Origin: Allobaculum sp.
Lineage (GTDB): Bacteria; Bacillota_I; Bacilli_A; Erysipelotrichales; Erysipelotrichaceae
DNA: 7,038 nt
NCBI GenBank assembly: GCA_014803815.1
Contig: JAAVAY010000130.1
Span: 1 to 7,038, forward strand
Direction: 5' to 3'
This document shows, one piece after another, positions 3,032 through 7,038 of this stretch (its first letter is position 1; every line of letters starts with the position of its first letter). Below the pieces are notes generated by a model. That model was not told the origin of the DNA and searched no databases. It saw only the letters and a list, made by a program, of their open reading frames with translations. A program made the position numbers and the translations under genes.

Positions 3032-3059
3032 TTCAGAGTTGTGGGCAATTGTGTAAAAT
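3032..3059 (+). promoter_or_regulatory. Candidate promoter of the ABC importer operon
   Basis: TTCAGA (3032-3037, 4 of 6 matches) and TAAAAT (3054-3059, 5 of 6) are 16 bases apart. Transcription would begin near 3066, exactly where the first helix of the structured leader (GCATTGA, 3066-3072) starts, which supports the assignment. Between the upstream terminator and here (2979-3031) I see nothing else. Confidence 0.5.
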
Positions 3060-3216
3060 TAGAGCGCATTGATTTTCATTTGTGGCCTATTCAAAGCCTC
3101 TTTTGAATGCTTTAGACCGTTCAATGCACAACAGTTTTATCGTGTAGAGATAAATCGTTGTTTTTACTTTGCAGGAGAAAAAAACCAAAAAAGCAGAGAA
3201 GAAAGGAAAGCTCGCA

Positions 3217-3282
3217 ATGACCTGCAAAGTCGTATCTCTCTTGTCTAAGAAAAACGCTGGCTACGTTTTTTCTTTTTTTTAA
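3217..3282 (+). CDS. Possible 21-codon leader peptide overlapping the attenuator
   Basis: An ATG at 3217 opens a 21-codon frame that starts MTCKVVSLL and ends AGYVFSFF, closing at TAA 3280-3282. It has a good ribosome binding site, AAAGGA (3202-3207), nine bases upstream and lying in the A-rich loop of helix P5, so it should be accessible. Translation would melt the 3' strand of P5 and run through the terminator hairpin. The last six codons hold one Tyr and three Phe, fitting the aromatic amino acid theme of the downstream transporter, but the Phe codons are simply the T-tract read in frame, so this may be coincidence. Its stop is 25 bases before the lipoprotein ATG, close enough for reinitiation. 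It could also be a chance ORF. Confidence 0.4.
   Translation: MTCKVVSLLSKKNAGYVFSFF
3247..3280 (+). terminator. Intrinsic terminator inside the operon leader (attenuator)
   Basis: AAGAAAAACG (3247-3256) pairs with CGTTTTTTCTT (3264-3274) around one bulged T, with a 7-base CTGGCTA loop, and continues into a T-run to 3280. The stem is A/U-rich with only a few G-C pairs, so termination may be partial or condition-dependent. It lies between the candidate promoter and the first structural gene, with no promoter after it, so operon expression must read through. Confidence 0.65.
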
Positions 3283-3307
3283 AACTATTGCGAGTTGATT
3301 GTTGTTT

Positions 3308-4333
3308 ATGAAACTGATTCATTCTTTTTCAACTGCTTTGCTCGGAGCCGCTTTATTGATGGCGGGATGTTCTTCCGATACAAGCACAACTTCTTCCACT
3401 TCCTCCACAGCGAAAAGTGATGCCGTAAGCAATGAAAGTGAAGTGACTATCGGTATTTTACAATATGTCGAACATCCCGCTTTGGATGCTGCTACTGAAG
3501 GATTTGAAGACTACTTAAAAGACAATGGCTATGCGGATGCCAAAATCGATTTTAAATCTGCTCAAGGTGAAATCGCTAACTGCACCTCTATTGCTCAAAA
3601 ATTTGTCAACGATGATGTGAGCTTAATTTTTGCGGTGGCTACTCCTGCAGCCCAAGCAGCAGCCAATGAAACCAAAGATATCCCTATCGTTCTTTCCGCT
3701 GTTACCGATCCTGCGGATTCGGGTTTAGTAAAATCCAATGAAGAACCAGGTGGGAATGTCACTGGAAGTTCTGATTTAACTCCCGTGGAAGCCCAATTCG
3801 ATTTGTTACAAGAAATCTTACCTGATGTAAAAACCATTGGTCTGCTTTACTGCAACGCCGAAGCCAACTCCGTATTCCAAATTAATTTGGCCAAAGAACA
3901 ATGCGAAGAACGTGGATTAGAGTATAAAGAAGCCAGTGTAACGGACTCCAATCAAATTCAACAAGTTGTAGAATCTCTCAATGGCAAAGTGGATGCCATT
4001 TATGTTCCAACCGATAATATGATGGCCGAAAGTATGGCTACGGTTACTCAAGCCGCTTCCCAATATGGTATTCCTTGCATCGTGGGAGAAGAAGGAATGG
4101 TTGAAAATGGTGGATTGGCCACTTATGGCATTAATTATTATGAATTAGGTCAATTGGCTGGTGCTCAAGCTGTAGCCATTTTAAAAGATGGAGATAAACC
4201 AGCGGAGATGGCGATTGCCTACTTGCCTGCCGATCAATGCACTTTAACTATCAACAAAAAGACGGCTGAAACCTTGAATCTTGATATTCCACAATCTGTC
4301 TTAGACCGTGCCACTGTTGTAGGGGAAGAATAA
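3308..4333 (+). CDS. ABC importer substrate-binding lipoprotein (TrpX-like, COG2984 family)
   Basis: This is the solute receptor of an ABC importer, 341 residues, anchored outside the membrane. A signal peptide (1-20) ends in the lipobox LMAG before C21, which would be lipidated, followed by a Ser/Thr-rich linker to about residue 45. The periplasmic-binding-protein fold then starts VTIGILQYVEHPALD, with family-typical blocks ATPAAQAA (111-118), VTDPADSGLV (132-141), PGGNVTGSSD (147-156), YVPTDN (232-237) and GEEGMVENGG leading to YGINYYELG (260-281). Known members bind aromatic amino acids (streptococcal TrpX, C. difficile tyrosine-binding CD0873); the ligand here cannot be read from sequence. 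ATG 3308 gives a normal signal peptide; TTG codons at 3299 and 3302 are in frame. There is no good ribosome binding site, only GCGAG 13 bases upstream. The stop overlaps the permease ATG (TAATG). Confidence 0.93.
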   Translation: MKLIHSFSTALLGAALLMAGCSSDTSTTSSTSSTAKSDAVSNESEVTIGILQYVEHPALDAATEGFEDYLKDNGYADAKIDFKSAQGEIANCTSIAQKFVNDDVSLIFAVATPAAQAAANETKDIPIVLSAVTDPADSGLVKSNEEPGGNVTGSSDLTPVEAQFDLLQEILPDVKTIGLLYCNAEANSVFQINLAKEQCEERGLEYKEASVTDSNQIQQVVESLNGKVDAIYVPTDNMMAESMATVTQAASQYGIPCIVGEEGMVENGGLATYGINYYELGQLAGAQAVAILKDGDKPAEMAIAYLPADQCTLTINKKTAETLNLDIPQSVLDRATVVGEE

Positions 4334-5280
4334 TGTCCATTCTTTACTCTTTAGAAGGAGCCATTGGCCAAGGAATTCTTTGGGGAATTATGGCTCTAGG
4401 GGTTTACATTACGTTTCGCCTTTTGGATTTTGCAGATCTAACTGTAGATGGCTCGTTTGCCACGGGAGGAGCTGTAGCGGCTGTTTTGGTCGTCATGGGG
4501 GTCAATTCCTATTTGGCGGTGTTAATTGCCATGATTTGTGGCTTTTTGGCTGGAGCTGTGACCGGCTTTTTCAACACGGTATGCAAAATTCCTCCCATTT
4601 TAGCAGGAATTTTATCCCAAATCGGTTTATACTCCATCAACTTAATCATTATGGGCCAATCCAACATTCCACTTTTAAATTACCCCAATATGTTTAATAC
4701 CTTAGCTCAATCGATTCCAGCTCTAGGTTGGATTACGCCTCAAACACTCTCTATCATTGCCATTGGTCTTTTGTTTGTCGTAGTCACAATTGCTCTTCTT
4801 TACTGGTTTTTTGGAACAGAACTTGGGATGTCGATTCGTGCTACAGGAAACAATCCTCATATGGTTCGAGCGAATGGCGTGTCTACCAACTGGACTACGA
4901 TGGTGGCTTTAATGCTTTCCAATGGTTTGATTGCGATGTCAGGTGCGCTTGTTTGTCAACAACAAGGCTATGCTGATGTCAAGATGGGAATTGGAGCCAT
5001 CGTTATGGCCTTAGCTTCCATCGTCATTGGGGAAACGATCTTTGGTCGGCAAGGAGGCTTTTTGCGTCGTTTAGCCTCTATCGTGATCGGAAGTGTTCTT
5101 TATCGCATTATCGTATCCATTGTTTTACAACTTGGCTTAAATCCAGATAACTTAAAACTCTTTACCGCTTTACTTGTGGCTGTGGCTTTGAGCATTCCTG
5201 TAATGCTGGAATCTCGTGCCCAAACTGCCGCTTATAAACGCTTAACTGCGGCGGTCGAAGATGTGGAGGACAAATTTTAA
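4333..5280 (+). CDS. ABC importer permease (TrpY-like, COG4120 family)
   Basis: This 315-residue membrane protein forms the transport channel for the solute bound by the upstream lipoprotein. It has about eight or nine hydrophobic segments, roughly at 10-30, 45-80, 88-108, 138-160, 188-208, 218-235, 245-266 and 275-292. The early motif DFADLTVDGSFATGGAV (32-48) and the cytoplasmic loop GTELGMSIRATGNNPHMVRANG (about 161-182), which docks on the ATPase, are typical of the branched-chain-type permease fold (BPD_transp_2) and of this subfamily. Length is normal for the family. It starts at the ATG overlapping the lipoprotein stop by one base, with AGGGGAA (4321-4327) five bases upstream, and its own stop overlaps the ATPase ATG, so the three proteins are translationally coupled. 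A single permease gene suggests a homodimeric channel. Confidence 0.95.
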   Translation: MSILYSLEGAIGQGILWGIMALGVYITFRLLDFADLTVDGSFATGGAVAAVLVVMGVNSYLAVLIAMICGFLAGAVTGFFNTVCKIPPILAGILSQIGLYSINLIIMGQSNIPLLNYPNMFNTLAQSIPALGWITPQTLSIIAIGLLFVVVTIALLYWFFGTELGMSIRATGNNPHMVRANGVSTNWTTMVALMLSNGLIAMSGALVCQQQGYADVKMGIGAIVMALASIVIGETIFGRQGGFLRRLASIVIGSVLYRIIVSIVLQLGLNPDNLKLFTALLVAVALSIPVMLESRAQTAAYKRLTAAVEDVEDKF

Positions 5281-6074
5281 TGCTTGAAATCAAACATGTG
5301 TCCAAAACCTTCAATCCGGGAACCGTAACGGAGAAAAAAGCCATTCAAGATTTGAACTTAGTGATCGAAGATGGTCAATTTGTCACAGTTATTGGGGGCA
5401 ATGGCGCTGGAAAATCCACCTTATTGAATCTCATTGCTGGTGTCTATCCTCCCGATTGTGGCAAGATCATTTTGGATAATAAAGACATCTCCCTACTTCC
5501 CGAGCACAAACGCGCTGCCTACATTGGTCGTGTCTTCCAAGATCCTTTACGTGGAACGGCCGCTGATATGGAAATCAGCGAAAACTTAGCCTTTGCTACA
5601 AGACGTGGAAAATCAAGAACGCTTCGCTGGGGACAAACGAAAGACGAAAAACAGCAATATCACGATTTGCTGGCTCCTCTTGGTTTAGGCTTAGAAGATC
5701 GCCTCCATACCAAAATGGGTTTGCTTTCTGGAGGACAACGCCAAGCGCTCACCCTTTTAATGGCTTCGCTTAAAAAGCCAGAGCTTTTGTTACTTGATGA
5801 GCATACGGCCGCTTTAGATCCACTTACGGCTAAAAAGGTCTTGGATTTAACCAAGCGCATTGTTGAAAAAGACAATCTCACAACTTTAATGATTACTCAC
5901 AACATGAAAGATGCGATCCGATTGGGAAATCGATTGATCATGATGTACGATGGGAAAATCATTTTTGATGTCTCAGGCGAAGAAAAAGCTGCTTTAACCG
6001 TTGAAGATTTGCACCAGAAATTCAAAGAAGCAGCGGGCCAAGAATTCTCTGATGACCGAGCGGTTTTGATCTAG
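5280..6074 (+). CDS. ABC importer ATP-binding protein (TrpZ-like, COG1101 family)
   Basis: The 264-residue ATPase that drives the importer, acting as a dimer on the cytoplasmic face of the permease. All catalytic motifs are intact: Walker A GGNGAGKST (39-47, K45), Q-loop VFQDP (Q87), signature LSGGQRQ (149-155), Walker B LLLLDEHTAALD (169-180, catalytic E174), and switch His H207 in MITHN. The DEHTAALDP version of Walker B plus D-loop, and the DPLRGTAADMEISENLAFA segment after the Q-loop, are characteristic of the COG1101 group paired with COG2984 receptors and COG4120 permeases. GGAGG (5265-5269) ten bases before the ATG gives it its own strong ribosome binding site in addition to coupling. 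It is the last gene of the operon, followed by a terminator. The substrate is inferred from the family to be an aromatic amino acid. Confidence 0.96.
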   Translation: MLEIKHVSKTFNPGTVTEKKAIQDLNLVIEDGQFVTVIGGNGAGKSTLLNLIAGVYPPDCGKIILDNKDISLLPEHKRAAYIGRVFQDPLRGTAADMEISENLAFATRRGKSRTLRWGQTKDEKQQYHDLLAPLGLGLEDRLHTKMGLLSGGQRQALTLLMASLKKPELLLLDEHTAALDPLTAKKVLDLTKRIVEKDNLTTLMITHNMKDAIRLGNRLIMMYDGKIIFDVSGEEKAALTVEDLHQKFKEAAGQEFSDDRAVLI

Positions 6075-6484: not shown

Positions 6485-7038
6485 ATGGAAAATAACAATA
6501 TGCTCGCCATGATTTTGGCTGGCGGGCGTGGCACTCGTTTGTACGACCTGACAAACAAGACTGCCAAACCTGCTGTCTATTTTGGCGGCAAGTATCGCAT
6601 CATCGATTTCCCCCTCAGCAACTGCGCTAACTCCAACATTAACGTGGTAGGAGTTTTAACGCAGTATGAACCCGTTCAGCTCAATGCCTATGCAGGAGCA
6701 GGGCAGCGCTGGGGCCTAGACTCTCGTGGTAGTGGCGTGTATGTTTTACCACCAAGTGAAAAAGATGGTACAAACTTCGGCGTGTATAAAGGGACAGCCG
6801 ATGCCATTTATCAAAACATCGATTTCATTGATGAATTTGATCCTGACTACGTTTTAATTCTTTCTGGCGACCACATCTATAAGATGGACTACGACAAGAT
6901 GCTCGCAGATCACCGCAAAAACAATGCCGATTTGACCGTAGCAGTTCGTCCGGTTCCATGGGAAGAAGCTCCACGCTTTGGAATCATGAATACCGACATG
7001 ACCAATCGTATCCTCGAGTTCCAAGAGAAACCTGCAGA
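6485..7038 (+). CDS. glgC: Glucose-1-phosphate adenylyltransferase GlgC (3' end outside window)
   Basis: ADP-glucose pyrophosphorylase makes ADP-glucose from glucose 1-phosphate and ATP, the committed step of bacterial glycogen synthesis in the cytoplasm. The visible 184 residues cover most of the nucleotidyltransferase domain: the nucleotide loop LAGGRGTRL (11-19), [22 protein letters not shown] (25-46), GVLTQYEP (56-63), the QRWGLD and GSGVYVLPP blocks (74-90), [11 protein letters not shown] (101-111), the metal-binding [11 protein letters not shown] (126-136, D129), RFGIM (164-168) and FQEKPA at the edge (K182 matches the glucose-1-phosphate-binding Lys). The segments match the Bacillus-type enzyme better than the E. 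coli type. AGGAGG (6472-6477) seven bases before ATG 6485 fixes the start. It is transcribed alone from the left and in such genomes usually heads a glgC-glgD-glgA operon, which would lie to the right. Confidence 0.97.

Follow-up and report, generated by a model that had tools for sequence, protein, structure and literature searches.

Does the leader of the importer operon in the window (the whole stretch of 7,038 nucleotides of Allobaculum sp. DNA analyzed here, from a bacterium of a gut-associated family) act as a regulatory element, and if so, of what kind? The operon is a TrpX/TrpY/TrpZ-like three-gene ABC importer operon on the plus strand. Pfam matches identify the genes for the substrate-binding protein (3308..4333, PF04392), which is preceded by a weak Shine-Dalgarno sequence, the permease (4333..5280, PF02653), and the ATPase (5280..6074, PF00005). 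The initial annotation had described the region upstream (3066-3307) as a structured attenuator of a new type, composed of helices P1-P5, an alternative pairing that excludes P4, and a terminator. We compared this region with its counterparts in related genomes, searched for homologs, and assessed its folding and coding potential against shuffled sequences.

The closest genomes compared were those of Erysipelotrichaceae bacterium RD49 (L001), Allobaculum (L002 and L014), and G005, in which the permease is 79-84% identical to that of the window and the binding protein, where present, 72-82% identical. The relatives of the binding protein in the protein database include P0002 (92% identical, encoded on a 7367-bp contig) and P0003 (87%, encoded on nine contigs); the protein of the window itself is recorded there on a single 7038-bp contig and belongs to a cluster with 12 member sequences.

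The candidate operon promoter (3032..3059, plus strand) consists of a -35-like TTCAGA and an extended -10 element, TGTGTAAAAT (TTCAGA-16-TAAAAT, ending at 3059). Taken alone, such a site is no evidence because promoter-like sites are rarer in the window than in its shuffles (3 versus a mean of 12). L001, L002, and L014 share its 13-nt core, AATTGTGTARAAT, in front of the orthologous gene. The upstream sequence of the window is alignable with that of RD49 from the terminator of the preceding gene to the -10 element (local score 77 versus the best score of 48 among 200 shuffles), so the added stretch described below sits downstream of the shared promoter; the scores for L002 (34) and L014 (48) did not exceed those of the best shuffles (50 and 56, respectively). 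Given that the promoter is kept in relatives, the leader should belong to the transcript and is probably transcribed from this site. As the initial annotation had proposed, no promoter follows the terminator: no further promoter-like site was scored from 3059 to the first gene. A transcription start downstream of 3280 is also not favored, the shared promoter lying upstream of the leader.

Eight operons of the family encode a permease at least 70% identical to that of the window and were considered near orthologs. One of these, in G005, was left out of the leader comparison, its contig ending inside the binding-protein gene, so that seven were readable (L001, L002, L014, L026, L027, L028, and L029). 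All seven contain a -10 element of the same type (GTGTARAAT; GTGTAAACT in L026) 27-34 nt before the start codon (taken as GTG in L028), with a GGAG-type Shine-Dalgarno sequence in between, versus 248 nt from the -10 element to the start codon in the window. Thus, a comparable leader is absent in all seven readable near orthologs; there is no room for it between promoter and start. The promoter and the added length can be read directly from the sequence, and the short leaders of the near orthologs suggest that about 220 bp were inserted in the lineage of the window downstream of an older promoter, which is the simplest reading; we infer a gain here, not a loss elsewhere. The insertion would extend approximately from 3072 to 3286 (plus strand; boundaries drawn by eye and uncertain by about 10 nt). 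The sequences at its two ends, 3054-3072 and 3280-3298, are alike (about 14 of 19 bases by eye), perhaps as a trace of the origin of the insertion, or by chance.

Homologs of the leader were sought in several ways. None was detected by blastn in phages and plasmids or by whole-genome DNA searches of sets of 3 and 97 genomes. A DNA search of 395 genomes of the class gave matches at E<=0.01 in 58 genomes, with two candidates scored per genome; among the matches listed, lengths were 19-49 nt, mostly in A-rich or T-rich stretches, and these were taken as chance. In 16 viral contigs, a 17-base stretch of P5 is matched, but over no more than 20 nt, and this was likewise attributed to chance; among viral contigs, no relative of the binding protein was found. 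Two single-sequence covariance models of the leader were scored against 272 genomes of the family with the stricter filters used for more than 40 genomes. Model R1 found no match, and model R2 matched two genomes (E 0.003-0.005 per genome), which we judged to be chance: one match (L094) falls within a 299-aa ORF, most of the other (L095) is located beyond the listed ORFs, and both contain several non-standard pairs in P5. Comparison of the insert with the rest of the window revealed short matches only, and the open-access literature searched contained no publication on this leader. The homologous leaders that would speak for a conserved structured RNA were, accordingly, not found in these searches, and a conserved RNA switch appears unsupported because the stretch is shared by no relative examined.

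All helices named in the initial annotation are present in the sequence at their positions: the P1-P3 stem-loop region (3066..3127; P1 3066-3072/3121-3127, P3 3089-3096/3101-3108), the P4 hairpin (3128..3161; 3128-3132/3157-3161 plus 3136-3141/3149-3154), and P5 (3166..3230), a perfect 10-bp stem (3166-3175/3221-3230) with a purine-rich loop of 45 nt, all on the plus strand. Equilibrium base-pair probabilities were computed for ten transcript lengths. P1-P3 are the only helices predicted to be likely at every length (0.82-1.00 at all ten). Up to 3240, the probability of P4 is 0.74-0.97 and that of P5 0.97-0.98; in transcripts beyond 3240, both lose to other pairings (0.01-0.30 and 0.00-0.12, respectively), so that P4 is transient in the fold model. 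The alternative pairing of 3146-3152 with 3233-3239 can be found in the sequence, but its probability is at most 0.02 and it does not involve the terminator, which leaves the proposed attenuator logic incomplete.

Measured against chance, the structure is mostly marginal. The whole leader (3066-3320) does not fold better than expected (z -0.45, with 59 of 200 shuffles as good), and in a sliding 100-nt scan of 347 positions, the best leader z was -1.6, with no leader position among the 20 lowest. Individual segments do better against their own shuffles, namely 3066-3161 (z -3.3; 3 of 300 as good), P1-P3 at 3066-3127 (z -2.4; 5/300), P5 at 3166-3230 (4/300), and P4 at 3128-3161 (8/300), values that are favored by cutting at helix ends. 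Among 2000 shuffles of 3066-3307, an equally stable first 96 nt was obtained in 53 and a 10-bp inverted repeat with a loop of at most 60 nt in 112.

The terminator claimed at 3247-3280 holds as a hairpin followed by a U tract, but it is weak. The terminator-like hairpin (3249..3280, plus strand) has 7-8 bp, two of them G-C (stem 3250-3256/3264-3270, then TC and eight T), and an energy of -4.2 to -4.8 kcal/mol, versus -12.0, -16.9, -12.1, and -12.2 kcal/mol for four other terminator-like hairpins after genes of the window. The segment 3247-3280 has a z of -0.8, with 57 of 300 shuffles as good, and a terminator-like hairpin appeared in 130 of 2000 shuffles of 3066-3307. The computed terminator probability is 0.88 at 3272, 0.03 at 3282, and 0.30-0.44 at 3330-3400. 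The purine tract at 3178-3210 and the U tract at 3266-3280 can pair, and when the transcript is folded to 3282, they do so at the expense of both P5 and the terminator; such pairing arises only after the termination point.

Is the leader a T-box? No match to a known Rfam family was found in 3066-3307 even at E<=5 (4227 families). The statement in the initial annotation that it has no T-box consensus was borne out: RF00230 was not matched at E<=5, and GGTGGNACC does not occur in the 300 nt upstream of the gene. The window also contains weak Rfam matches to Phe_leader and BTnc231 (minus strand, within 1091-1287); these fall short of the gathering scores and are located over T/A-rich sequence. 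We then counted T-boxes, with coordinates turned to the strand of the gene, in 29 relatives of the operon (L001, L002, L014, and L026-L051; L048, which has no scored start, enters through the Rfam and motif searches alone). A T-box precedes the binding-protein gene in three of them, L042 and L043 by motif and Rfam, and L049 by Rfam at threshold; none was found before the first gene in the remaining 26. Seven genomes (G001-G005, G176, and G182) additionally encode a second binding protein, about 40% identical, and the T-box motif GGTGGTACCGC is present in all seven paralogous leaders (L073, L074, L075, L077, L078, L079, and L081); therefore, the motif belongs to the paralog in these genomes. 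None of the seven reaches the Rfam gathering score for RF00230, and these T-boxes may represent a divergent form. The contrast that the initial annotation had drawn with T-box-controlled streptococcal operons is thus misplaced, with the motif on the paralogous operon in seven genomes and 26 of 29 relatives without a T-box. According to the relevant part of PMC9382623, trpXYZ of Streptococcus suis is under T-box control. That leader resembles the one in the window in its position between the promoter and the first gene of a comparable three-gene importer operon, but it is 461 nt long, versus about 240 nt in the window, which has neither the T-box motif nor an RF00230 match. The T-box transporter passages of PMC2494555 make no mention of COG2984 or TrpX.

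The least chance-like element of the leader, absent from the initial annotation, is a putative leader ORF of 21 codons, MTCKVVSLLSKKNAGYVFSFF (3217..3282, plus strand), with a TAA stop at 3280-3282 directly after the U tract. The ORF runs through the hairpin and ends 25 nt before the first gene. It is preceded, within the P5 loop, by the Shine-Dalgarno sequence AGAAAGGA (3200..3207, plus strand), with an anti-Shine-Dalgarno duplex energy of -10.3 kcal/mol, the same as for glgC. Its ATG is the only one of the 15 possible starts (ATG, GTG, or TTG) in 3060-3307 with a strong Shine-Dalgarno sequence; in the whole window, on both strands and including true starts, one that strong precedes 10 of 234 ATG triplets. 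By a statistic defined after the ORF had been seen, an ATG ORF of at least 20 codons with a Shine-Dalgarno sequence that strong occurred in 3 of 2000 dinucleotide shuffles (16 at a threshold of -8). With any start allowed (GTG and TTG included), the count at the same Shine-Dalgarno strength was 12 of 2000 for at least 20 codons and 36 of 2000 for at least 10 codons, the latter rising to 196 of 2000 at -8. Near its end, in or beside the U tract, the ORF contains TAC and three TTT codons; it has no Trp codon. A 59-aa ORF with a TTG start (3069-3248) was also considered and dropped; it has no Shine-Dalgarno sequence (-2.1) and gave weak matches in 3 of 266 cases, at 30-32% identity.

The first importer gene, for its part, has a weak, non-canonical Shine-Dalgarno sequence (GAG..TGAT, -7.4), versus -9.3 to -11.1 in L001, L002, and L014 (in L014, where the frame is broken, AAGGAG was read by eye). 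A script that looks for GGAG, AGGA, GAGG, or AAGG found no such motif for this gene and found one for 27 of 29 relatives, although a downstream ATG was possibly picked for L027, L028, L042, and L050. The ORF and the difference in Shine-Dalgarno strength are, again, properties of the sequence itself; the competing pairings described next are computed. The two arms of an inverted repeat (3211..3294, plus strand), CTCGCAAT (3211-3218, reaching into the first two bases of the leader ORF) and ATTGCGAG (3287-3294), could pair the start region of the ORF with the weak ribosome-binding region ahead of the first gene. The predicted probability of this pairing is 0.23 in the transcript to 3330, 0.59 to 3360, and 0.55 to 3400, and 0 when the ORF start is blocked. 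In transcripts ending at 3360-3400, the region 3287-3296 is open with a probability of 0.22-0.28; placing a ribosome on the start of the ORF would raise this value from 0.28 to 0.59 in the transcript to 3400, but only from 0.47 to 0.60 in the transcript to 3330. No opening is computed for the region around the start codon (3300-3312), with values of 0.29-0.49 for the free transcript and 0.27-0.28 with the ribosome. Repeats of this kind are common, an 8-bp repeat with a loop of at most 100 nt occurring in 1204 of 2000 shuffles and one with the 3' arm in the last 30 nt in 460.

Ribosome-mediated leader-peptide attenuators are described in Firmicutes for ilv-leu of Staphylococcus aureus, in the passages of PMC5794164 on this operon, and for Rli60/ilv-leu of Listeria monocytogenes in those of PMC5864092. 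Like these two leaders, as presented there, that of the window combines a short putative leader ORF, a terminator-like hairpin, and computed competing structures. In the S. aureus leader, an alternative fold ties up the poly-U of the terminator, and the same was computed for the window leader at 3282; however, the S. aureus terminator-like structure lies 52 nt after the peptide stop, whereas the ORF of the window overlaps the hairpin (PMC5794164). The hairpin of the window is also far from the -17.1 kcal/mol given for Rli60, at about -4 (PMC5864092). Furthermore, unlike the ilv-leu attenuators as these passages portray them, the ORF of the window has no clear run of codons for one regulated amino acid, and its conservation is not seen in the relatives examined.

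In translational coupling, a known mechanism, a short upstream ORF is linked to the gene that follows it. The arrangement in the window looks similar, with a strong start on the small ORF and a weak start on the gene that begins 25 nt after its stop.

Considering these observations together, our tentative preference is for a young leader-peptide or translational-coupling region on a lineage-specific insertion, as opposed to a ligand-binding RNA. The insertion would have separated the older, shared promoter from the first gene, lengthening the leader from about 20-30 to about 240 nt, and the leader would act through translation of the 21-codon ORF. A ribosome starting at 3217 would break the pairing between 3211-3218 and 3287-3294, thereby opening the poor ribosome-binding region ahead of the first gene, and would then run over the weak hairpin and keep it open, most of all if it slowed on the Tyr and Phe codons. 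If the leader went untranslated, the first gene would be masked in part, and a fraction of the transcripts may terminate at the U tract. That the ORF is translated, that it is coupled to the first gene, and that termination occurs are all inferred here, as is a response to aromatic amino acids, which could operate via the terminal Tyr and Phe codons of the ORF. Against this mechanism, these codons follow from the U tract and may have no regulatory role, and with only about 30 nt between the start of the ORF and the hairpin, the ribosome may arrive too late. The initial annotation had left the signal open among a ligand, a tRNA, and translation; of these, translation sensing fits the leader ORF, but a structured attenuator class is not supported. 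Nearly equal in likelihood to a leader-peptide or coupling region is a neutral insertion, in which the helices, hairpin, and short ORF are chance features of A/T-rich DNA and the operon simply has a longer, somewhat worse leader. The unremarkable whole-leader fold and sliding scan fit this account, as do the shuffles, 3-7% of which yield a P5-like repeat, a terminator-like hairpin, or a stable first 96 nt and up to 196 of 2000 of which satisfy the looser ORF definitions; no homolog of the insert was found either. It is countered by the rarity of the ORF with its strong Shine-Dalgarno sequence under the strict definition (3/2000) and by the open frames of all three importer genes despite the poor Shine-Dalgarno sequence of the first.

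Other readings are considerably less probable. A structured transcription attenuator of a new class, sensing a ligand or tRNA via P1-P5 and the alternative pairing, is unlikely: the P1-P4 segment beats its own shuffles and P5 is predicted to form up to 3240 before yielding to other pairings, but none of the seven readable near orthologs has the leader, no homolog was found elsewhere, the covariance models gave only two chance-level matches in 272 family genomes, and the alternative pairing is all but absent from the computed folds and does not engage the terminator. The claim of a structured attenuator is also weak in view of the whole-leader fold, the energy of the terminator hairpin, and the loss of P4 and P5 in longer transcripts. 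Less likely again is control of first-gene translation by leader structure alone, with 3287-3294 masked by 3211-3218 or other segments and no peptide involved; the masking pairing reaches 0.55-0.59 in transcripts to 3360-3400 and the Shine-Dalgarno sequence of the first gene is weak, set against a repeat that is common in shuffles, a pairing that is rare in the transcript to 3330, and the lack of conservation. An assembly chimera, in which foreign sequence was placed between promoter and gene, is highly improbable; the protein of the window is recorded on a single contig and no second DNA copy of the junctions was found (the 12 cluster members of the binding protein carry no information on the leader), but no foreign source of the insert was detected in phages, plasmids, or the 395 genomes of the class. 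A more specific form of the leader-peptide reading, a regulator at birth in which a recent insertion made a working leader-peptide control, with the ORF running through its own terminator and its start region masking the ribosome-binding region of the importer, in place of the short leader of the relatives, also seems rather unlikely. If the leader ORF works, the locus would offer a datable gain of a leader regulator at an operon with a short leader in near relatives, in a family with genomes that have T-box motifs on the paralog. If it does not, the locus calls for caution, in that a leader may contain several helices, alternative pairings, and a hairpin followed by a U tract and still not be a conserved RNA element.

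Upstream of the promoter, the window encodes a small charged protein (2659-2931) with no Pfam match. A similar gene was seen by eye before the importer operon in RD49 and in Allobaculum sp. Allo2 (L014), so the neighborhood is kept. A glgC-like nucleotidyltransferase gene (6485-7036) lies 3' of the operon; in G002, G003, G005, G176, and G182, its best match shares a contig with the operon and is close to it, and in G001 it lies on a different contig. In Allobaculum sp. Allo2 (L014 in G003), the binding-protein gene, its paralog, and the glgC-like gene are each in two pieces, which looks more like sequencing indels in this assembly than three separate gene losses.
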